DNA of 64,000 nucleotides from the NCBI RefSeq assembly GCF_003149045.1, contig NZ_QGDU01000009.1, positions 1 to 64,000 of the forward strand, in the 5' to 3' direction. The stretch is from Fibrobacter sp. UWR4 (GTDB taxonomy: Bacteria > Fibrobacterota > Fibrobacteria > Fibrobacterales > Fibrobacteraceae). Numbering within the stretch: position 1 is the first letter of the stretch; every line of letters starts with the position of its first letter. Below the pieces are notes generated by a model. It was not told where the DNA came from. It did no database searches and worked only from the letters and a program-made list of their open reading frames with translations. The position numbers and the translations under genes were made by a program. Below are positions 33,985 to 48,292 of this stretch, one piece after another.

Positions 33985-34692
33985 ATGGCAGAAGATCAGA
34001 ACTTAGATGAATTGACCGAAGAATCTGCGGAACTTCCTAAAGTTGAAAGTCAGGAAGATCTTGCACGTATTATCCAGGCCCTGGTTTTTGCATCCCCCGA
34101 TGTAGTGACCCTGAAGAAGCTCCGTGAAATTTTGGGGGACTTCCTGGATGCACGTTTGGTGTCCGATGCCCTGATCGCAGCCAATGATTCCTTGAACAAA
34201 ATCAATTCTCCTTTCGAAATTGTGGAACAGGCTGGTGGCTATCGTTTCCGTACTCGAGCCAAATATTATCCTTGGGTCCGCAAACTGTTCCCGGAAGTGA
34301 ATGCCCGCCGCTTGAGCCAGGCAGCCCTTGAAACTCTGGCTGTAATCGCTTACCAGCAGCCCATTACCAAGGCTGCCATTGAACAGGTCCGTGGCGTGTC
34401 TTCCGTGGATGGTCCCATTCGTAATTTGCTGGATAAGAAGTTTATCGCTTTGGGTTCCCGCGCAGAAACAGTGGGTAACCCCTACACTTATGTAACAACT
34501 CAGGAATTCATGAAGTACTTCGGTATCAATCGCATTCCCGAAGATTTGCCCCGTCTCCGTGAATTCAGTGAACTTCTGGAAGCCGGCGCTCTGGTACCTC
34601 AGTATGCCAAGCCCGAATCTGTTGTGGTTGAAGAACCTGTGGAACCGGAAGAAAACCCGGATCAGGTTGAACTTTCTATGGGAGACCTGTAA
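33985..34692 (+). CDS. scpB: Segregation and condensation protein B
   Basis: A 235-residue winged-helix protein of the SMC-ScpAB condensin. It shows LSQAALETLAVIAYQQPITKA and the following EQVRGVSSVDGPIRNLL, which are typical. The last ~35 residues are a Glu/Pro-rich tail. Its TAA overlaps the mutS ATG by one base, implying coupled translation. No scpA or smc nearby. Confidence 0.95.
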   Translation: MAEDQNLDELTEESAELPKVESQEDLARIIQALVFASPDVVTLKKLREILGDFLDARLVSDALIAANDSLNKINSPFEIVEQAGGYRFRTRAKYYPWVRKLFPEVNARRLSQAALETLAVIAYQQPITKAAIEQVRGVSSVDGPIRNLLDKKFIALGSRAETVGNPYTYVTTQEFMKYFGINRIPEDLPRLREFSELLEAGALVPQYAKPESVVVEEPVEPEENPDQVELSMGDL

Positions 34693-37334
34693 TGGCTTGT
34701 ACTCCTTTAATGCAGCAGTATTACGATATCAAGGCTCAGAATCCAGGCTGCATTTTGTTCTTTAGAATGGGCGACTTCTTCGAGTTGTTTGAAGATGATG
34801 CTGTAATCGCCTCCAAAATTTTAGGTATTACACTCACAAGCCGCAATAACGGCGCATCCGGTGCTACGCCTCTTTGCGGATTCCCGCACCACGCCGCGGA
34901 ACGTTACATTCCCAAGATGGTTGCCGCTGGTTACCGCGTGGCCATCTGCGAACAGGTGGAAGACCCCAAGCTTGCCAAGGGTATCGTCAAGCGTGACATT
35001 GTGGAAATCATCAGCGCCGGTACCGCCATGAACGAAGCCAACCTGGACGCCAAGGAAGCAAATTACCTTTGCGCCTACGTCCCGTCTGCCGCAGAAAAAA
35101 ATGCCGAAGGCAAGGGCGCGGAACTTGCAGCCTTCGCTATCGCTGATGTGACTACGGGTTACCTGGCTACCAGCAAGAGTTCCGTTCAGGCATTTGAATG
35201 TGAATTCTGCCGTCGCATGCCTAAGGAAATTGTTGTTCCCGAAGGAACCAAGATTCCCGATGGCGTCATGGACTTGATCAAGTCCGAAAACATCTTGATT
35301 ACAGAACTTCCTGCCTTCCAGTTTGGGGAAGAAGCTGCCAAGGACACGCTTTTCAACCACTTCAAGGTGGAAGCCTTGGATGGCCTCGGTCTGGATGGCC
35401 GCACCGAAGAAACTTCCGTGACGGGTGCCTTGCTGCAGTACCTCATGTACCAGAAAAAATCTGAACTGAGCCACTTTACGGCTCTGGAGATTTTGAATCT
35501 GGACGACTACATGACACTGGATCCGTCCACCTTGCGCAATCTGGAACTGGTGCGTCCGTTGAATGCCGACGACATCAGCAGCACCCTCTGTTATGTGCTG
35601 GACTTTACCGTCACTGCCATGGGTGGCCGTACTTTGAAGGATTGGGTGAGCCATCCTTTGATTTCTGTGGATCGCATTAAGGCTCGCGAAGAAGCCGTCG
35701 ATGAACTGGTAAATAACCCGGTGGCCCTTGATGAACTGAAGGAATCCCTCACTTCCATTCTGGATATGGAACGTTTGATGGGACGCGTAGGTTCTGGTCG
35801 CGCCAACGCTCGAGACCTTGCTGGAATGGGCCGCTCCCTGGCTCAGGCATCCAAGGTGGCCGATGTTCTGGAAGGATTGCAGTCGCCCATCTTTGAACCC
35901 ATGCGTGAAGCACTCGTCCGCGCTCAGGGTAGGGGAGAGGAACTTCTTAGTCAATTTAATGATGACCTGCCTTTGACTGTTCGTGAAGGCGGAATGATTC
36001 GCGAAGGCGCCAATGCAGAACTGGATGCCATGAATGCCGATATCAAGGATCGTCGCCAGTGGATTGCTTCTTTGGAAACCCGCGAAAAGGAACGTCTGGG
36101 AATTCCTAGCCTTAAAGTGGGCTACAACAAGGTGTTCGGTTACTATATCGAGGTGACCCGCGCCGCCATGGCCAAGGCTACGAACCCCATTCCTGATGAG
36201 TATATTCGTAAACAGACCACGGTGAACGCTGAACGCTACATCACTCCGGAAATGAAGGAATGTGAATCCGTCATCAGCAATGCCGAAGTGAATATTCACG
36301 CTCTGGAATACAAGATTTTCTCTGAACTCCGCGACCGCGTCAACTCCTGGCGCGCAGAACTTCAGGAAATTGCCAACGCCATTGCCCGCGTTGATACGCT
36401 GTACAGCTTTGCTCGTGCAGCTCGCAAGTACAACTACGTCTGCCCCGAAGTTTTCGAAGGCTCCGGCATTGAAATCAAGGGTGGTTTCCATCCTGTGATT
36501 GTGGCGGTGAATCCGGATCTAGACTTCATCAGCAATGATGTGAAGTTGTCGCCCGAGGCCACCCGACTGATGCTGATTACAGGCCCTAATATGGCTGGTA
36601 AATCCACTTACCTGCGTCAGACTGGCTTAATCGTTTTGATGGCGCAAATCGGCTGCTTCGTGCCTGCGGAATCTGCCCGCATTGGCGTTGTGGACCGCAT
36701 CTTTACCCGCGTTGGCGCCAGCGACCGCCTAAGCCGCGGCCTCTCTACTTTCATGGTGGAAATGATCGAGACGGCAAACATCTTGCGTAACGCAACGGCT
36801 CACAGCCTTGTGCTTCTGGACGAAATTGGCCGCGGTACCAGTACCTTCGACGGCCTCTCCATTGCCTGGGCCATCGTAGAGACTTTGCACGACGAACCGG
36901 CCCGCGCTGCCTTGACGCTATTCGCAACCCACTACCACGAATTGACGGGCCTGGTGGAAGACCTTGAGCATGCCGGAAACTATCAGGTGGCAGTTCAGGA
37001 AAAAGGCGACAAGCTGCTGTTCCTCCACAAGATTCTTGAAGGGGCGTGCGACTCTAGCTATGGTATTCACGTGGCAGAAATGGCGGGGCTTCCCAACAAC
37101 GTGTTGCGCCGTGCCCGCAAGATCCTGATGCGTCTTGAAAAGCATAAGATCGACCCCAGCGACGAAGCCGCCAACAAGAAACTGAAGGAAAAGCCCCAGG
37201 TTGATTTGTTCGCTCCTCCTGATGAAAGCACCATGCTCCTGAAGGAAGAAATCCGCCGACTCCATCCCGAAGAAATGACCCCCATGCAGGCTCTCCAGAC
37301 CCTCATGGACCTGAAGGAAAACTACGGGAAATAG
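34692..37334 (+). CDS. mutS: DNA mismatch repair protein MutS
   Basis: An 880-residue MutS1-type protein. The mismatch-reading GxFxE motif is in RMGDFFELFED (~25-33). Domain I ends with CGFPHHAAERYIPKMV. The ATPase domain has GPNMAGKST (~631), the signature STFMVEMIETANIL and DEIGRGTSTFDG. The C-terminal ~60 residues carry the dimer/tetramer region (LHPEEMTPMQALQTLMDL). It starts within TAATG, directly coupled to scpB. Confidence 0.97.
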   Translation: MACTPLMQQYYDIKAQNPGCILFFRMGDFFELFEDDAVIASKILGITLTSRNNGASGATPLCGFPHHAAERYIPKMVAAGYRVAICEQVEDPKLAKGIVKRDIVEIISAGTAMNEANLDAKEANYLCAYVPSAAEKNAEGKGAELAAFAIADVTTGYLATSKSSVQAFECEFCRRMPKEIVVPEGTKIPDGVMDLIKSENILITELPAFQFGEEAAKDTLFNHFKVEALDGLGLDGRTEETSVTGALLQYLMYQKKSELSHFTALEILNLDDYMTLDPSTLRNLELVRPLNADDISSTLCYVLDFTVTAMGGRTLKDWVSHPLISVDRIKAREEAVDELVNNPVALDELKESLTSILDMERLMGRVGSGRANARDLAGMGRSLAQASKVADVLEGLQSPIFEPMREALVRAQGRGEELLSQFNDDLPLTVREGGMIREGANAELDAMNADIKDRRQWIASLETREKERLGIPSLKVGYNKVFGYYIEVTRAAMAKATNPIPDEYIRKQTTVNAERYITPEMKECESVISNAEVNIHALEYKIFSELRDRVNSWRAELQEIANAIARVDTLYSFARAARKYNYVCPEVFEGSGIEIKGGFHPVIVAVNPDLDFISNDVKLSPEATRLMLITGPNMAGKSTYLRQTGLIVLMAQIGCFVPAESARIGVVDRIFTRVGASDRLSRGLSTFMVEMIETANILRNATAHSLVLLDEIGRGTSTFDGLSIAWAIVETLHDEPARAALTLFATHYHELTGLVEDLEHAGNYQVAVQEKGDKLLFLHKILEGACDSSYGIHVAEMAGLPNNVLRRARKILMRLEKHKIDPSDEAANKKLKEKPQVDLFAPPDESTMLLKEEIRRLHPEEMTPMQALQTLMDLKENYGK

Positions 37335-39555: not shown

Positions 39556-40542
39556 ATGAAGTATTTAAGTGTCATTCTGAGCTCATTCCCTCGTGTCATT
39601 CTGAGCGAAGCGAAGAATCTAGCAGTCCTCCTTGCGGCAGCCTTTTTCCTTGCTTCCTGTTCTGTTTACGATAACTACAGCGAGGATTCTTACAATGCTT
39701 TCTGGGGCATTGCCGAAAATGACGTAAATTCCAGCTCTGCCGACGAAAAAGTTTCTAGTTCTGTAAATGAGGGGGTCTCTAGCAGTTCCAAGACCCCTGA
39801 TAAGGATGGTGAGTCTATCTCCAGCTCCAGCGTCAAGAAGGATGACTCGTCCAGTAGCAGCAAAAAAGACACCACCTATGTGGTAATCGTCAATCCGTCC
39901 AGCTCTTCGCAGAAGGTCGAATCTGCAGGAAGTTCCGCAGTTGACAATCCCGGCAGTTCTTCTTCCAAGGTCCCTGATCCGATAGAATCCAGTTCCTCTG
40001 CCGTAACATTCAGATGCGGCCTGGATAGCATTGTAGATTCTGAAGAGTATCTCGGTCGAAAATATGCAACGGTAAAGTATGGTTCCCAATGTTGGCTTGC
40101 GGAAAATTCCTACAGGGCTGTTGGCGAATCCAAGTGTTACAATGATGCACCGGAAAATTGCGAGATTTACGGTCGTCTGTACAATTTTGCCGATGCACAG
40201 TTCGCTTGCCCCGAGGGAACTCATCTGCCTTCCGAAGAAGAGTGGATTGCTTTGCAGACTACGGTTACTCGAGACAATGGCGGTCTGGATCTGAAGTCCA
40301 CTGAGACATGGTCAGCGAAGCCCGGACAGTCTGGCAGCAAATTTAGCGCCAAGGCCGCCGGCTACTATGATGCCGAAGAGGAAGAATTCGTTTCTCTGGG
40401 AGGCTTTGCCGGTTTCTGGAGTTCCACCGATGTAGGAGGCATGATGGCCACTTATATGTACCTGTCGTCATCGAACCAGAATTTTATCGATGGCTACAAG
40501 GAACAGTCTAATTTCTATTCGGTACGCTGCCTGAAAGATTAG
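39556..40542 (+). CDS. FISUMP-domain lipoprotein
   Basis: A 328-residue lipoprotein (lipobox LASC). Residues ~55-150 are a low-complexity Ser-rich linker (many SSSS runs), which in Fibrobacter spaces surface domains from the membrane. Residues ~155-328 are a Fibrobacter succinogenes major paralogous domain (YGSQCWLAEN, CPEGTHLPSEEEW, GFWSST, YSVRCLKD), a C-type-lectin-like fold. It lacks the variable repeat of the next gene. The codons for residues 5-25 come from a dispersed repeat (see 39569-39620). AAGGAGG precedes the ATG. Confidence 0.88.
   Translation: MKYLSVILSSFPRVILSEAKNLAVLLAAAFFLASCSVYDNYSEDSYNAFWGIAENDVNSSSADEKVSSSVNEGVSSSSKTPDKDGESISSSSVKKDDSSSSSKKDTTYVVIVNPSSSSQKVESAGSSAVDNPGSSSSKVPDPIESSSSAVTFRCGLDSIVDSEEYLGRKYATVKYGSQCWLAENSYRAVGESKCYNDAPENCEIYGRLYNFADAQFACPEGTHLPSEEEWIALQTTVTRDNGGLDLKSTETWSAKPGQSGSKFSAKAAGYYDAEEEEFVSLGGFAGFWSSTDVGGMMATYMYLSSSNQNFIDGYKEQSNFYSVRCLKD
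39569..39620 (+). repeat. Dispersed repeat inside a signal-peptide coding region
   Basis: Two copies of GTGTCATTCTGAGC (39569-39582 and 39593-39606), the second continuing GAAGCGAAGAATCT. Sequences of this type are common dispersed intergenic repeats in bacterial genomes. Here it is translated as VILS...VILSEAKNL between the start codon and the hydrophobic core. Confidence 0.75.
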
Positions 40543-40567: not shown

Positions 40568-43270
40568 ATGAAAATGAAAATTTTAAAAATTGCAGGATTT
40601 GCGATTCCTCTAACCTTGATTGCCTGTGGCGATTCCGGGACAACGGAAAATATTACCAATAATTATACCAGCGGGATGGAAATCGCAGAAAAGGTCTCGG
40701 ACCTGCCCAAGTGTACTACGGATAACGAAGGTGACCAGGTGTGGGTCAAGGAAAAGGGTGCTGCAAGCATTTGCGTGGATGGCAAGTGGAATGTTATCGG
40801 CGGATCCGGCGCTGCTGCAGATTTTGGTTGTGAGACTAAGAACCTTGCGGATGGTTCCGGTGTCGCCATCTACTGCGCAGGGGATTCCATTGGTGTTGTG
40901 CTGAACGGCAAAGATGGTGCCAAGGGTGATAAAGGTGACATCGGTGAAACCGGTGCCGCAGGTGCCGATGGCAAGGACGGCGTTGATGGCAAAGATGGTG
41001 CGCAAGGTTTGCAGGGTGAAAAAGGCGATGCCGGTAGCGACGGGATGCCGGGCATAGGCTGCAAGGTCGTTTCCCAGACGGAAGATGCTGTGACAATTCA
41101 GTGCGGTGATGACCTGTTTAGCATGAACCTGAACGGCGGTAGTGGGGAAGTTGTTGTTCCCGGTGAAGATGTAGTTTCTCTTGCGAAGTTGAGCGGTGTT
41201 TCCCAGAAAGGGCCGTTTATCAACGGCTCCACGGTGACGCTCTTTGAACTGGACGGTAGCCGTAGCCTGGTGCAGACCGGTCGCACCTTCGGTGGTGAAA
41301 TCATTACCGATGACGGTCGTTTTAGCGTGAACAACGTTTCCCTGAAGTCCAGCTATGTGCGCATGACCGCCAACGGTTTTTATCGCAACGAAGTCACTGG
41401 CAAGAACAGTACCGCTAGCATTGTTCTGAACGCCTATTCCGATTTGCAAGCCCGCAGCAGCGTGAACATCAACCTGCTGACCCACCTGGAATATTATCGT
41501 GTGGGCTACCTCATGGAAAACGGTCTGGAATCCACTATCAAGGCTTCCAAGAAACGCGCCCAGAAAGAAATCTTTGCCGCCTTCGGTATCGATAATGATG
41601 GCTTCGGCTATTCCGAAGATCTGGATGTATTTGGCGAAGGCGATCAGAATGCGGCACTGCTTGCCATGAGCATTTTGTTGCAGGGTGACCGCAGCGAAGC
41701 CGATCTAAGCGCCCTGCTTGCCAGCTTCGGTAAGGATATTGAGGAGGACGGAACCTGGGACGACAAGGCTACACGCGGCACCATCGCTAATTGGGCCGCC
41801 CTTCGCGATGGTGCAGGAAATTTCGGTGTATATCGTGGCTATGTGGAACGCTGGGACCTCGGCTCAGTACCTGAATTTGAAAAGTATCTGCGCAACTTCT
41901 GGAGCCGCGAATATGGTTTGGGCGTTTGTGGCAGCGACACTGTGCCCGTAGGCACCGTGAAGAACGCCACCAACAACAATGGCAAAGCAAGCAATGACTA
42001 CGCAGCAACATACACCAGTCAAACCAACAAGAATCGCTTCATCTGCGTGGATGCCGACAGCCTCAAGTGGCGCGAGGCGACCGACATCGAGAAGGATACC
42101 ATGGGCCTGAAGCATGGTGAACTCACCACTCATGAGCAGGCTTCAGTAATCAACGGTCAAATAAATACAGACTATGTCTATGTGTACGAGGGGAAACAGT
42201 ACCGTCGTGGAACTGACCTGGACAAGAACCTTGGTCTTGGAGGCTGCACTAAGGCCCGCGTGGATTCCGTATGGAAGAGTGGTTCCGCATGGTATACTTG
42301 CGTGGATACGATTGTCCCTAACTCTAAGTTGAATTCTCTTGGAATAATGACTGTTTGGCGCACCTCTACAGACATCGAAAAGGATACAATCCACTGGTCT
42401 ACTCTCAAGAGTAACTTTGATGGCGAGGTCAGCAAGGGACAGATTACAGACAACTACTACATCTACGAAAAGTCCAAAGGAGCCTGGCGCAATGCAACTC
42501 AGGTTGAATACGATACTTATGGTATTGAATGTTCTGCCGAAAAAATCGCTTCCACGATGAATGGCCTCATTAATACAACAAAGATTTACGCTTGTAACGG
42601 AACTGCCTGGGTGTTCAAACGCGACAATCCTCAGAATCATAAATTTGGAACAGTTGCAGATGTCCGTGACAATCAGGTATATTTAACAGTGACTATTGGT
42701 TCCCAGACCTGGATGGCAGAAAACTTGAACTACGACTACAACGAGGGAACTGCCAAGAGCTATTGCTATAGCAACAGCAGTGCCAACTGCGACGAGTATG
42801 GTCGTTTGTACCTGTGGTCGGCAGCCATGGACTCCGCGGCAGTCTTTAGCAATGCCGGAAAGGGTTGCGGTTATGGCACGACATGCGCAGCCGCTTCGAC
42901 AAGTTCAGCGACCTTGGTGAGAGGCGTCTGCCCCGAGGGCTGGCACCTGCCTAGCAACTCCGATTGGAGTATTCTGTGGACTGCTATTGGAGGAACCTCT
43001 ACCGCAGGAACCAAGCTGAAATCAACAAGCGATTGGAACAGCGGTGGCAATGGCGAAGATGCGTACGGTTTCTCCGTCCTTCCTGCTGGCCTCTACTACG
43101 ATGGTAGCTTCCGCAATGCTGGCTACTACGGGTACTTCTGGTCTTCTACTGAGAGCGATAGTAATAACGCCTACGGCAAGTACTTCCTCTACGATATCTC
43201 GGACGTGGACGAGCGCAACTACGGTAAGTACGACGGCTTTTCTGTCCGTTGCCTCCGCAACTCCAACTAG
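40568..43270 (+). CDS. DGR target: collagen-like/FISUMP surface lipoprotein
   Basis: A 900-residue lipoprotein (lipobox LIAC, Cys20). Residues ~112-163 hold 17 uninterrupted Gly-X-Y triplets (GKDGAKGDKGDIGETG and so on), a collagen-like stalk. Residues ~200-690 contain a carboxypeptidase-like or Ig-like region (AKLSGVSQKGPFINGSTVTL) and two or three Cys-rich repeats (DSLKWREATDIEKDT and similar). Residues ~691-900 are a FISUMP C-type-lectin-like domain (IGSQTWMAENLNYD, CPEGWHLPS, FWSST, GFSVRCLRN). The last 66 codons are the variable repeat VR, which matches the downstream template except at adenines. It is thus the diversified protein of the retroelement and should be displayed at the cell surface. 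Confidence 0.92.
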   Translation: MKMKILKIAGFAIPLTLIACGDSGTTENITNNYTSGMEIAEKVSDLPKCTTDNEGDQVWVKEKGAASICVDGKWNVIGGSGAAADFGCETKNLADGSGVAIYCAGDSIGVVLNGKDGAKGDKGDIGETGAAGADGKDGVDGKDGAQGLQGEKGDAGSDGMPGIGCKVVSQTEDAVTIQCGDDLFSMNLNGGSGEVVVPGEDVVSLAKLSGVSQKGPFINGSTVTLFELDGSRSLVQTGRTFGGEIITDDGRFSVNNVSLKSSYVRMTANGFYRNEVTGKNSTASIVLNAYSDLQARSSVNINLLTHLEYYRVGYLMENGLESTIKASKKRAQKEIFAAFGIDNDGFGYSEDLDVFGEGDQNAALLAMSILLQGDRSEADLSALLASFGKDIEEDGTWDDKATRGTIANWAALRDGAGNFGVYRGYVERWDLGSVPEFEKYLRNFWSREYGLGVCGSDTVPVGTVKNATNNNGKASNDYAATYTSQTNKNRFICVDADSLKWREATDIEKDTMGLKHGELTTHEQASVINGQINTDYVYVYEGKQYRRGTDLDKNLGLGGCTKARVDSVWKSGSAWYTCVDTIVPNSKLNSLGIMTVWRTSTDIEKDTIHWSTLKSNFDGEVSKGQITDNYYIYEKSKGAWRNATQVEYDTYGIECSAEKIASTMNGLINTTKIYACNGTAWVFKRDNPQNHKFGTVADVRDNQVYLTVTIGSQTWMAENLNYDYNEGTAKSYCYSNSSANCDEYGRLYLWSAAMDSAAVFSNAGKGCGYGTTCAAASTSSATLVRGVCPEGWHLPSNSDWSILWTAIGGTSTAGTKLKSTSDWNSGGNGEDAYGFSVLPAGLYYDGSFRNAGYYGYFWSSTESDSNNAYGKYFLYDISDVDERNYGKYDGFSVRCLRNSN
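43067..43264 (+). repeat. DGR variable repeat (VR)
   Basis: 198 bases at the 3' end of the target gene, ending 6 bases before the end of its stop codon. Ungapped alignment to the TR at 45348-45545 gives 27 mismatches, every one an adenine in the TR (13 to G, 10 to T, 4 to C). All hit the first or second base of AAY codons; 21 of 26 such codons are changed. The last ~30 bases are unchanged and correspond to the region used to start mutagenic homing in known DGRs. Confidence 0.96.
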
Positions 43271-43272
43271 GA

Positions 43273-43368
43273 GCCTGCCTCTAGGCAACCCCAAGCCGAA
43301 GGCAGGGGTTGCGCCGCCCCACCCCGTCGAGCCTTGCCGGGCGGGGTGGGGCGGCCGCGCGAAGCGCG
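43273..43368 (+). other. Three GC-rich hairpins directly downstream of VR
   Basis: Inverted repeats at 43285-43292/43305-43312 (8 bp), 43313-43326/43342-43355 (perfect 14 bp, 15-nt loop) and 43356-43360/43364-43368 (5 bp, 3-nt loop). In the Bordetella phage DGR a hairpin just after VR promotes target recognition; these are in the equivalent place. They lack T tracts, so they are poor terminators. Confidence 0.75.
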
Positions 43369-43411
43369 AATAAAATTTGTTTGCAAAATTTTGAAAAAAA
43401 GAATAAGTGTC

Positions 43412-44500
43412 GTGAAATCAAAAATTTTAACGGCAGATGACTTGGTTCTCCCTCTACTGGAGGCGTACTATCAAGCACGTCGCCATAAAAGGAACACGGT
43501 AAACCAGCTGCAGTTTGAACTAAGCCTGGAACAGTCTATCTATGATTTATCGCGAGAATTGTCTTCAAGAACGTATGATCTCAGGCCATCCATTTGCTTT
43601 ATCAACGAAACTCCTGTAAAACGCGAAATCATTGCAGCAAACTTTCGTGATAGGGTTGTGCACCATTTGCTGTGTAACTGGATTTGCCCCATATTCGACC
43701 GACAGTTCATTCATGATTGCTACAGCTGCCGTGTTGGCCGTGGAACCGATTTTGCCGTGAGCCGCGCAAAGTATTTTATGGTATCTGAAAGCCGTGATTT
43801 TACAAGGGAATGTTGGTCTTTGCGTCTTGACATTAGTGGTTTCTTTATGGGAATCCACCGGGATATCCTGTATCAGCTTTGTGTAGAGGGCTTGAGTCGT
43901 GGCAAGTGGGCGGGTGTTCCCGACAAGGACTTGTGCATGTTTCTTCTAAAAAAGTTTATCTACAATAATCCTTTGGATAACGCTATTTTTCGAAGTCCAC
44001 CAAGTGCTTGGAATGACCTTCCGTTAAATAAGAGCCTTCGAGGAACTTCAGTAAACTGTGGACTTCCCATCGGTAATCTTACCAGCCAGTGGTTTGGTAA
44101 TATCTACTTGAATAGATTGGACCAGTTTGTAAAGCATCAGCTGAAAATTCGCTGCTATGGCCGCTATGTTGATGATATGCTTCTGGTTCATCACGACAAG
44201 TCTGTTCTTTTAGAAGCAATCTTCAAGATTCGGGATTATCTTAAATCACGGTTGCATTTGAATCTAAATGAAAAGAAAACAAGGCTTCAACCTATACAGA
44301 AAGGTTTTCCTATGCTTGGAGCCTATATTCTGCCGTACCGAACTTATCCTGGCAGGCGTACGGTTAAAAACTTTGTAGAATGTGTAAAGAATCCTTGCCG
44401 TGATGAAGATAAGCAGAAAAGTAGAGTCCAAAGCTACCTGGGCTATATGGGGCATTATAACGCATATCGGCTTACCCAGTCTATTCAACAAGGAACATGA
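43412..44500 (+). CDS. DGR-type reverse transcriptase
   Basis: A 362-residue reverse transcriptase. RT motifs in order: CYSCRVGRGTDFAV (region 2), SLRLDISGFFMGI (catalytic Asp of motif A), GLPIGNLTSQWFGNIYLN (the I/LGxxxSQ motif 4 typical of DGR enzymes) and YGRYVDDMLLVH (YxDD catalytic pair). It lacks maturase and endonuclease domains, unlike group II introns. It should copy TR RNA into adenine-mutated cDNA. GTG 43412 is chosen: it is the first start beyond the hairpins. Its TGA overlaps the accessory gene by ATGA. Confidence 0.95.
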   Translation: MKSKILTADDLVLPLLEAYYQARRHKRNTVNQLQFELSLEQSIYDLSRELSSRTYDLRPSICFINETPVKREIIAANFRDRVVHHLLCNWICPIFDRQFIHDCYSCRVGRGTDFAVSRAKYFMVSESRDFTRECWSLRLDISGFFMGIHRDILYQLCVEGLSRGKWAGVPDKDLCMFLLKKFIYNNPLDNAIFRSPPSAWNDLPLNKSLRGTSVNCGLPIGNLTSQWFGNIYLNRLDQFVKHQLKIRCYGRYVDDMLLVHHDKSVLLEAIFKIRDYLKSRLHLNLNEKKTRLQPIQKGFPMLGAYILPYRTYPGRRTVKNFVECVKNPCRDEDKQKSRVQSYLGYMGHYNAYRLTQSIQQGT

Positions 44501-45219
44501 ATATGAAAATGTCTGAAATATATGCTTTGGAAGAAGCGAACAAATCCTCCATCTATCTTTATTTGGAAGGCTCGTTTTACAAGGCTTATGAAAGGTCTGC
44601 ATTTCGTTTTTGCAAGAGGTTTCGGGAATGCAAGGTAAGTGCTGTTCACAACTTGTCACTGGCTTGCGACATTGTACGCATTGGTTTCCCGAAAATTGCC
44701 TTGGATAAGTATATGGCTGTAGCCCAGTCGTTTGGGTATTCGGTAGAATGCCAAGACGAAAAGAGAATTGCCGTTCATGGGATTGAACCTTTGGAAGGAT
44801 TTTCTTCTTGGAAAAATGGTTGCGTGTCTAATGCCGTTAGGGCTAAAGAGCAAACTTTGCCTATTGTTAATGCTCAGGAGTCATTAAAATTGCGTCTTTA
44901 CCGCGAAGCTTATGACAATGCTGTGGCTCTTACAAATTTTACTTCTAGGCTGCACCGTAATTTTCGTTTTGGAGCTGGTGATTCCTTGCGAAATGAATCT
45001 CTGGAACTGGCGGTAAAACTACACGTGGCGTTTAAACGAGGTGAGTCTCTGGATGAACGGCAAATATTTTATGAGATAGAACAGATGCGCATTCGCACTC
45101 GCATAATGCATGATGTGAAGCAATTTGATAGTGGCGTGTGGAAAATGCTCAACGATCGTTTTGACAGAATGCAGAATTTACTAAGGTCGGAATCCTGTTG
45201 CTTTGATGTGCAGGAGTGA
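44497..45219 (+). CDS. DGR accessory protein: MutS-I-like domain plus Avd-like helical bundle
   Basis: A 240-residue basic protein. The C-terminal half (~128-235) resembles Avd, the four-helix RT partner of DGRs: FTSRLHRNFRFGAGDSLRNE and QIFYEIEQMRIRTRIMHDVK match its helices 1-3. The N-terminal half (~18-95) resembles domain I of MutS: IYLYLEGSFYKAYERSA aligns with LFFRMGDFFELFEDDA, and RIGFPKIALDKYMAVAQSFG with LCGFPHHAAERYIPKMVAAG of the mutS product in this window. The acidic mismatch-reading residue is not in the same context. It probably binds the RT and TR RNA. AAGGAA precedes ATG 44497, and it overlaps the RT gene by 4 bases. Confidence 0.82.
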   Translation: MNMKMSEIYALEEANKSSIYLYLEGSFYKAYERSAFRFCKRFRECKVSAVHNLSLACDIVRIGFPKIALDKYMAVAQSFGYSVECQDEKRIAVHGIEPLEGFSSWKNGCVSNAVRAKEQTLPIVNAQESLKLRLYREAYDNAVALTNFTSRLHRNFRFGAGDSLRNESLELAVKLHVAFKRGESLDERQIFYEIEQMRIRTRIMHDVKQFDSGVWKMLNDRFDRMQNLLRSESCCFDVQE

Positions 45220-45239
45220 ACCTCTGGAGTTGGGCGGCA

Positions 45240-45267
45240 TACTCGCTGCTGATATGCAGGGCGAGTA
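45240..45267 (+). ncRNA. Stem-loop in the leader of the DGR template RNA
   Basis: TACTCGCTGC pairs with GCAGGGCGAGTA around a 6-nt loop, about 80 bases before TR. It is probably part of the structured RNA around the TR that the RT and Avd recognise. No T run follows, so it is not a simple terminator. Confidence 0.45.
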
Positions 45268-45347
45268 GAGTTTGTCGGGAATGGTGAATCGCGGCTGTTG
45301 TCCGCTTTTGCTGTTTCCGCTGAAAGTTGCTGCGAAATTCTTGTAAG

Positions 45348-45545
45348 GGTTTCTCCGTCCTTCCTGCTGGCAACTACAACAATGGTAGCTTCAACAATGC
45401 TGGCAACAACGGGAACTTCTGGTCTTCTACTGAGAACAATAGTAATAACGCCTACAACAAGAACTTCAACTACAATAACTCGAACGTGAACGAGAACAAC
45501 AACAATAAGAACAACGGCTTTTCTGTCCGTTGCCTCCGCAACTCC
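45348..45545 (+). repeat. DGR template repeat (TR)
   Basis: 198 bases matching VR at all positions but 27. It holds 64 adenines, and most variable sites are AAC or AAT codons when read in the VR frame, the classic DGR template bias that allows many residues and never a stop. It lies downstream of the accessory gene and is not itself a gene, although one frame stays open through it. Confidence 0.95.
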
Positions 45546-45591: not shown

Positions 45592-46476
45592 ATGAGAAAG
45601 AAAACTCTACGGCTTGGGAATGGAAATGTTGTGAATGATACAAACGAGCGCTTTGAAAACGAAAAATATGTGGAATCAGAAGAGGATACATTATCTTCAT
45701 TGCAATTCAATCCTATAAAAGAAAAAGAAGATTTAAAAAAATTCTTTTTGAAAAAAGAGGCATATAGTAAATTTGTTAATGGGGAAAAGAATTACTATTT
45801 TTATTGGTTTACTACTTATGATAAACTAGAGTTACTCGTAAATAAGAAAACGTTAAAGCTAGGTTTTCCTCCAAAGTGGTATGATTATGTTGATAGAATT
45901 TTTATTGAAGCATATTCCAATGAAATTGAACTTGGAAAAAGAATTTATGCGTCTTGTATAACTACGCAAAAAACATCTTTAATGTGGCAAAATTATGCTT
46001 TCAAAGAGAATTCTGTACTGATTATTTTTAATGGTCGAAAACTTCTGGAACTTCTGGGTGAAAAAATTCTGTTTTACCCTGTTATGTATATACCCCATTT
46101 AGAAAAAAGAAAAAAACAGAAAATTCTTGTGCCAAATAAATTGCTTTACCCGTTTATAAAGCGATATTCATATCAAGATGAACGGGAATGGCGCATTATA
46201 TCTACAAAACAAAACTTGAGATTTAAGACAATTAAGGATCTGATTGAATCCGTCTCAATTAGTGACTTTGCCTATGAAAAAAAATTACTTGAGAGTAAGA
46301 ATCAGTCAGAGGCTAATTATCTTTTGATTGAAAAGCAAAAAGAGAGGTTTAAGAAAAAGGTTGAGAAACTTTGTGAAAAAATCTCTCCCCAAAAAAGATA
46401 CCTGCGAAATGACTGGACTTTTGTGAATAAGTCTGTTATTCGGAATTATTGTGCGGACTTAGGAGACTTATCATAA
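45592..46476 (+). CDS. DUF2971-like protein, AT-rich
   Basis: A 294-residue protein resembling DUF2971: YWFTTYDKLELLVNKKTLKLGFPPKW, split here as YWFTTYDKLELL and KLGFPPKW, then IYASCITTQ, SLMWQNYA and YSYQDEREWRII. Function of the family unknown. The gene is visibly richer in A and T than its neighbours, so it was probably acquired. AAAGGA precedes ATG 45592, which is 46 bases after TR; it could be transcribed with the TR RNA. Confidence 0.7.
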   Translation: MRKKTLRLGNGNVVNDTNERFENEKYVESEEDTLSSLQFNPIKEKEDLKKFFLKKEAYSKFVNGEKNYYFYWFTTYDKLELLVNKKTLKLGFPPKWYDYVDRIFIEAYSNEIELGKRIYASCITTQKTSLMWQNYAFKENSVLIIFNGRKLLELLGEKILFYPVMYIPHLEKRKKQKILVPNKLLYPFIKRYSYQDEREWRIISTKQNLRFKTIKDLIESVSISDFAYEKKLLESKNQSEANYLLIEKQKERFKKKVEKLCEKISPQKRYLRNDWTFVNKSVIRNYCADLGDLS

Positions 46477-46705: not shown

Positions 46706-48292
46706 ATGGCGTTAAAGAATTTTCCTATCGGCATTCAGGATTTTGCGAGCATTCGCAACGAAGGGTTCTTTTATGTAGATAAGACGGACCTTGTTTACAA
46801 GTTGACTCATACAAGCAAGTATTACTTCCTCAGCCGCCCTCGCCGTTTTGGAAAGTCCCTTTTGATTAGCACATTGCAATGCTATTTCGAAGGTCGCAAG
46901 GAACTGTTCACTGGCCTAGCCATGGAACGCCTGGAGACCGAGTGGAAAAAGTATCCGGTCATTCGGCTGGACTTGAGTACAGTCAAGTCAACAGACCAGG
47001 ACAAGTTTGCCGAGAACATGAGCTTGAATCTGGAGTCTTACGAAAAAGAGTATTGTTTGGACAAGACAACTAGCCAGGCATGGGGTGCAAGGCTTAGGCG
47101 TATTATTGAAGCTGCAAATAATCAGACAAAGTCGCAAGTCGTTGTCTTGGTTGATGAATACGATGCTCCCGTTCTTGAGGCTATGGGCGATGCGAAGGCG
47201 CTAGAACGCATCCGAATGCAGATGCGGGAACTTTACGCGCCCCTCAAGGCCCTTGGCGGCATGCTTCGTTTCGTGTTCCTCACGGGCGTCAGCAAGTTCA
47301 GTCAGCTCAGCATCTTTAGCGAACTGAACAACCTGAATGTCATTACCATGGATGACGACTATGCAGCCATCTGCGGCATCACCAAGGAAGAACTGCTGAC
47401 CCAGATGCAGCCCGAAATCCAGGCGCTCGCCGACAAGCAGAAAATGACCTACGACGAGGCTGTCGCAACTTTGCAGCGCCGATATGATGGTTACCACTTC
47501 AGCGAAAACTCACCGGATATCTACAATCCGTTTAGCTTGATAAACTCTTTAGGTAAACAGAATTTCTTAAACTATTGGTTTGCATCGGGTACGCCGACCA
47601 TGCTTGTGAAGGCCATGGCCCGTTATAAGCTGAGTCCCGAAGAATATGATCGTGGTTTTTCTGTTGCACAGAGAACTTTTGATGCTCCTACAGAAACCGC
47701 AGAGACTCCCATCCCGGTTTTATACCAAAGTGGATATTTGACCATCAAGGGTTACGAAAAGGATTCAGTACGTCCGTTCAAATTGCAGTTCCCCAACGAT
47801 GAAGTTCGTAATGGAATGCTGGATTTGCTGACGAATTCGTATGTGTCAAAAAATGATGAGGAAACCTCCGAGTTCTTGGACCACTTCGTGACGGCGATGA
47901 AGGCGTGTGACATTGAAACTGCGCTTACAGAAATGCGCGCGTTCATGGCGAGCATTCCCTACGACGCCGAAAAGCAGAACGAACATCATTATAGAACTAT
48001 TTTCTACCTGATATTCAGAATTGCGACGCCGTACCTTGTCCGTTGCGAGGAACGTACCGCCGCAGGCCGCGCCGACGCCGTGGTGGAAACCGCCGACGCT
48101 GTTTACGTATTTGAATTCAAACTTGATGCAAACGGTACTGCCGACGATGCCCTCAGACAAATCGACGACAAGGGGTATCTGGTGCCTTACACCGTGACCA
48201 AGACTGCCGACGGCTCCCCGAAAAAACTGTTCAAGATTGGCGTCGCCTTCGATGCGGAAAAACGCACCTTGGGTCAGTGGAAAATCGCATAG
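46706..48292 (+). CDS. AAA-ATPase-like and PD-(D/E)XK nuclease-like protein
   Basis: A 528-residue protein of the widespread AAA-ATPase_like (PF09820-type) plus DUF1703/PD-(D/E)XK (PF08011-type) family. It shows YFLSRPRRFGKSLLIST (Walker A, ~45-60), VVVLVDEYDAP (Walker B, ~145-155), a middle QRRYDGYHFS and a C-terminal GRADAVVETADAVYVFEFKL with the nuclease D, E and K. Function unknown. Such genes occur in many copies in gut and rumen bacteria. A TATATTTA motif ends 4 bases before the ATG and there is no ribosome binding site. Confidence 0.88.
   Translation: MALKNFPIGIQDFASIRNEGFFYVDKTDLVYKLTHTSKYYFLSRPRRFGKSLLISTLQCYFEGRKELFTGLAMERLETEWKKYPVIRLDLSTVKSTDQDKFAENMSLNLESYEKEYCLDKTTSQAWGARLRRIIEAANNQTKSQVVVLVDEYDAPVLEAMGDAKALERIRMQMRELYAPLKALGGMLRFVFLTGVSKFSQLSIFSELNNLNVITMDDDYAAICGITKEELLTQMQPEIQALADKQKMTYDEAVATLQRRYDGYHFSENSPDIYNPFSLINSLGKQNFLNYWFASGTPTMLVKAMARYKLSPEEYDRGFSVAQRTFDAPTETAETPIPVLYQSGYLTIKGYEKDSVRPFKLQFPNDEVRNGMLDLLTNSYVSKNDEETSEFLDHFVTAMKACDIETALTEMRAFMASIPYDAEKQNEHHYRTIFYLIFRIATPYLVRCEERTAAGRADAVVETADAVYVFEFKLDANGTADDALRQIDDKGYLVPYTVTKTADGSPKKLFKIGVAFDAEKRTLGQWKIA

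Follow-up and report, generated by a model that had tools for sequence, protein, structure and literature searches.

Diversity-generating retroelements (DGRs) are bacterial systems that purposely scramble a portion of the gene for a surface protein. Among their accessory genes, MSL has been described by its homology to Pfam MutS_I (PF01624) (Wu et al. 2018 Nucleic Acids Res 46:11-24, via PMC10053308), and it was found again in a 2023 survey (PMC10053308). A second accessory protein, Avd, is the usual partner of the RT and is characterized as a homopentamer that binds RT and RNA. Avd of Bordetella phage BPP-1 (4dwl; RNP 8ub7) is a four-helix bundle whose gene lies directly 5' of TR (PMC12875486). 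In MutS itself, domain I carries the Phe-X-Glu motif, whose phenylalanine (Phe36) stacks against the mispaired base while its glutamate forms a hydrogen bond with it (PMC3848065; PMC12292046); replacement of Glu38 by Gln in E. coli MutS leaves an enzyme that no longer distinguishes mismatched from canonical duplex (PMC3848065).

Here we describe a DGR within a 64,000-nucleotide stretch of Fibrobacter sp. UWR4 (contig NZ_QGDU01000009.1, positions 1 to 64,000), hereafter the window. Sequence profiles and predicted structures show its accessory protein, P0001, to be an MSL (MutS domain I-like) module fused to Avd. As a MutS_I-related protein within a DGR, P0001 falls under MSL as that family is defined in PMC10053308, and the identity of the domain is not new, MSL having already been published. 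P0001 differs from the published family, whose 2018 description is known to us through the citing paper, in carrying a complete Avd domain fused to the MutS_I-related one. In the accessible literature, which covered the 2018 work through its citation, no statement of an MSL-Avd fusion was found.

The DGR of Fibrobacter sp. UWR4

A complete DGR occupies positions 40568-45545 of the window, with the VR-bearing target lipoprotein, RT, accessory gene, and TR in that order. Its features, including the parts of P0001 discussed below, are as follows.

40568..43270, + strand: target, a collagen-like lipoprotein whose C-terminal Fib_succ_major domain holds the VR
43067..43264, + strand: VR
43412..44500, + strand: DGR RT (RVT_1, E 1.9e-13; GTG start; YVDD and GNLTSQ motifs)
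44497..45219, + strand: accessory protein P0001, 240 aa, MutS-domain-I/Avd fusion (family alignment, AlphaFold2 model)
44503..44781, + strand: MutS domain I module, residues ~3-95 (profiles and structure)
44575..44583, + strand: F27-Y28-K29, aligned with the Phe-X-Glu mismatch motif of MutS, with Phe kept and Glu replaced by Lys (alignments)
44782..44871, + strand: linker, with a helix at 102-118 and a low-confidence stretch at 119-125
44872..45201, + strand: Avd four-helix bundle, residues ~126-235 (profiles and structure)
45348..45545, + strand: TR (compared with VR)

The DGR-type RT thus lies beside a TR/VR pair with 27 mismatches over 198 positions, every one of them (27/27) at a TR adenine; as A makes up 32% of TR, this placement has a p of about 6e-14. 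The DGR is active-looking. The ATG of the accessory gene overlaps the RT stop codon as ATGA, with AAGGA just 5' of the accessory start.

Several other genes border the DGR. Just 5' of the target, a second Fib_succ_major lipoprotein is encoded at 39556-40542, in which no VR was detected. Downstream, 3' of TR, lie genes for a DUF2971 protein (45592-46476) and an AAA-ATPase-like/PDDEXK_9 protein (46706-48292), possibly a defence-type neighbourhood.

The N-terminal half of P0001

A sequence-only reading of the window had proposed that residues ~18-95 of P0001 resemble MutS domain I and residues ~128-235 resemble Avd. For the first half, searches with individual sequences leave room for a chance resemblance, in which this half would be an unrelated small alpha/beta domain: P0001 matched Pfam MutS_I at E 0.006, under the curated cut-off, and MutS_I was matched by only 2 of 19 family members. 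The profile scores, however, far exceed those of shuffled controls. A single-sequence PDB search with P0001 returned no match. An alignment of 19 members, with relatives from the same and related genomes, scored 30.1 against 31 Fibrobacterota MutS proteins (300 column shuffles reached no more than 20.2), and mapped to domain I within full-length MutS in the correct register. When six phage relatives were added, hhalign gave a probability of 88%, an E of 3e-6, and a score of 38.1 (best of 200 shuffles, 26.6).

Structure prediction was consistent with these comparisons. AlphaFold2 modeled the N-terminal domain alone with a pLDDT of 87.7 and a pTM of 0.79, and its elements (H5-14, E19-24, E27-31, H32-41, E47-52, E57-65, H66-78, E82-85, and E90-94) agree with the helices and strands of MutS domain I in number and order. 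In a structure search with this half alone, the first 41 solved structures were all MutS/MSH; their Z-scores are moderate, in the range of 5-8 (7.8 to 5.1), while the best unrelated entry reached 4.9. The top eight Foldseek entries were likewise MutS chains, with modest E-values (best 3e-3). In addition, one of the capsule-locus relatives described below independently matches Pfam MutS_I over the same stretch, at 0.034. Chance similarity was rejected on the shuffles and the structure comparisons, and we regard it as very improbable.

Together, these profile and model-based data confirm the assignment of the N-terminal half (residues about 3-95; 2-95 by structure) as MutS domain I. The proposed relation was therefore recovered both by profile searches of this half and by structure prediction of the protein alone, over a somewhat longer segment, and the motifs quoted in its favor are real: GSFYKAY pairs with GDF(F/Y)EL of MutS, and GFP with GFP. 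P0001 thus shares with MutS/MSH the domain I fold, the GFP and (G)xFxxxF segments, and the wedge Phe, but it lacks domains II-V and the ATPase and carries Phe-X-Gln/His/Lys/Arg, across its family, in place of Phe-X-Glu. The remainder of its 240 aa consists of linker and Avd, with neither an ATPase nor a MutL-signaling part.

The C-terminal half of P0001

P0001 alone reached only E 0.07 against the Avd profile and fell below the NCBIfam Avd equivalog cut-off of 80 bits. Members of its family matched Avd families with best E-values of 2.7e-7 (NCBIfam), 8e-7 (PHROG), and 1.2e-6 (Pfam bAvd). The AlphaFold2 model of the whole protein, a monomer, has a pLDDT of 87.6 and a pTM of 0.49, a value at which the relative placement of the two domains is uncertain. 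Structure matches to the C-terminal half at Z 13-14 comprised 2gsc, 2rld, BPP-1 Avd (4dwl), and the DGR RNP (8ub7); helical bundles generally score high, and here Avd/S23 chains top the list and the sequence profiles concur. On this combined profile and model evidence, the C-terminal half (residues about 126-235; 128-235 by structure) is confirmed as an Avd four-helix bundle, as had been proposed. BPP-1 Avd shares this bundle but is without an N-terminal MutS domain I, and its sequence identity to P0001 is about 10%.

Distribution of the fusion in Fibrobacterota

The UWR4 genome has four DGR RTs, and each of them adjoins a MutS-I/Avd-type accessory protein. In a survey of 167 Fibrobacterota genomes, where RTs were counted at E at most 1e-60, such an accessory was present on the same contig for 26 of 29 RTs, and the other 3 RTs lie at contig ends, which truncate their loci. 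The MutS-I/Avd fusion is the normal accessory form of Fibrobacterota DGRs. One of the 26, a Fibrobacter protein beside an RT (L014:1060-1707, - strand), has kept the MutS-I half and has no recognizable Avd half; it represents either a degenerate copy or a third architecture. Two genomes also have RTs that are more distant (28% identity), and these are accompanied by a plain Avd instead of the fusion. A scan of genome contigs with P0001 alone found no relatives; with the family alignment, it found 16, all from Fibrobacterota.

The usual gene order is VR, MSL-Avd, TR, RT, and that in the window is RT, MSL-Avd, TR. In loci with a detected TR/VR pair, the accessory gene lies directly 5' of TR, whether the RT comes before or after. 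Standalone "Avd" matches (L079-L082 and L086-L089) were set aside, as no DGR RT was present in the flanking DNA examined; most of these resemble either short fragments or the 23S-IVP/S23 four-helix family at large.

Standalone MSL in phage DGRs

Relatives of the family were present on 11 IMG/VR contigs, fused to Avd in 10 and standalone in one (L116). Further phage contigs, assigned to the rumen from their sample identifiers, encode an MSL of 160-195 aa without Avd. On those long enough, the order is VR, MSL, TR, RT, so that the standalone protein takes the same slot as the fusion, just 5' of TR, and no Avd was found. Against the fused N-domain, standalone MSL gave a probability of 97% and an E of 3e-11. 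On its own, the phage profile scored 22.3 against MutS_I, within noise (best shuffle, 23.0); its relation to MutS depends on how strongly it matches the fused family. The standalone form indicates that the MutS-I module is a DGR component independently of Avd. In these phage DGRs (L116:4956-5531 and L118-L124), the MSL ends in a conserved tail of about 60 residues, which may take over docking.

Relatives in Bacteroidales capsule loci

Small MSL/MutS-I homologues are also encoded directly 3' of a NusG-like UpxY gene (L159:3498-3854, L164:1953-2342, and L165:932-1306), followed in two of the three loci by capsule export genes. In profile-profile comparison, they match the MSL domain with a probability of 98% and an E of 4e-13. 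No DGR RT was found near them in the stretches examined, which indicates that the domain has no fixed link to retrohoming. These relatives occupy the position of UpxZ, so that the MutS domain I fold may extend to regulators of the UpxZ type; PF06603 (UpxZ) had no match in P0001 or in the relatives, and a search of the UWR4 genome with it matched nowhere, the controls included, and was uninformative. Elsewhere, a 114-aa MSL-like protein (L160:3453-3794) is encoded on a human-gut contig, where its neighbors include fimbria-related and HU-like genes; the stretch examined contained no DGR RT. A tblastn match to MT836163.1 (L158) was not upheld by profile search.

The position of these relatives, directly after the NusG-like gene and in the place of UpxZ regulators, bears on function. 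The MutS-I half might be a protein-interaction or RNA-regulatory module that contacts the RT, a nascent transcript, or RNA polymerase without any wedging into nucleic acid. The variable charge of the family is compatible with such a role. The difficulty lies in the wedge residue, since Phe is present in all 25 DGR members, whereas Tyr or Ser replaces it in the Bacteroidales capsule-locus proteins; this contrast suggests a Phe-specific role in DGRs. We consider an interaction module of this kind rather unlikely.

The Phe-X-Glu site and a possible mechanism

The residues that read mismatches in MutS had been described as only partly kept in P0001. Among relatives, the Phe is retained in 25/25, and the Glu is found in 0/25, being replaced by Q (16), H (7), K (1), or R (1). 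The DGR family therefore does not carry the Phe-X-Glu motif. Because Glu is absent from all 25 and E38Q costs MutS its discrimination, true mismatch discrimination by the P0001 family is, by analogy with MutS, unlikely. The sequence-only reading had also suggested that the fold could bind the mismatched cDNA/VR hybrid or the template RNA; its mismatch-reading idea is supported only in part, while binding of duplex, hybrid, or RNA without discrimination may occur.

This loss weighs on the proposal that the MutS-I half reads mismatches between cDNA and VR and shields the heteroduplex from host MutS, so that adenine mutations survive. The invariant wedge Phe would suit such a role, the DGR heteroduplex is mismatch-rich (27 in the VR/TR pair of the window), a host MutS is encoded at 34692-37334, and in work by others mutS was deleted so that DGR substitutions would be kept in E. 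coli (PMC12875486). However, many DGRs function on Avd alone, and with the Glu gone from every member, we judge shielding by a mismatch reader to be improbable.

Our preferred reading, put forward tentatively and as somewhat less than probable, is that the MutS-I half, tethered to the RT complex through Avd, binds duplex or hybrid with low specificity. A low-specificity wedge would suit the pattern of a kept Phe and a lost Glu better than a mismatch reader. Avd would act here as it does in the DGR of Bordetella phage: it would oligomerize and dock on the RT and on RNA that spans the accessory gene into TR, and the short linkers would hold several MutS-I heads around the reverse-transcribing complex. 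The duplex met by each head would be either the hybrid of cDNA with RNA or the mismatch-rich heteroduplex of cDNA with VR, and the invariant phenylalanine would be presented to its minor groove as a wedge. Lacking the discriminating glutamate, the head would bind at low specificity; instead of reporting mismatches for repair, it would stabilize duplex that is bent or mispaired while cDNA is made or retrohoming takes place. Several points speak against this reading. An isolated MutS domain I, without the rest of MutS, may bind poorly; the N-domain is not notably basic, its net charge over residues 1-95 ranging from -6 to +4 within the family; and the capsule-locus relatives show the domain apart from any RT in the stretches examined.

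A bolder version is doubtful: an Avd oligomer would display several MutS-I heads around the RT complex, whose Phe wedges engage the mismatch-laden cDNA hybrid and either stabilize it or hide it from host mismatch repair. If true, a mismatch-repair domain would have been repurposed to protect programmed mutations.

These observations bear on two questions: by what route the mutated cDNA of a DGR enters its target gene, and how its mismatches escape repair. A MutS-derived module joined to Avd, or standing alone at the avd position in phage DGRs, offers a concrete handle, namely, residue F27 and a single domain boundary, both testable in a reconstituted DGR. MSL is also linked to a wider family, in which small proteins from the capsule loci of Bacteroidales resemble MutS-I, and how these act may inform the action of MSL.
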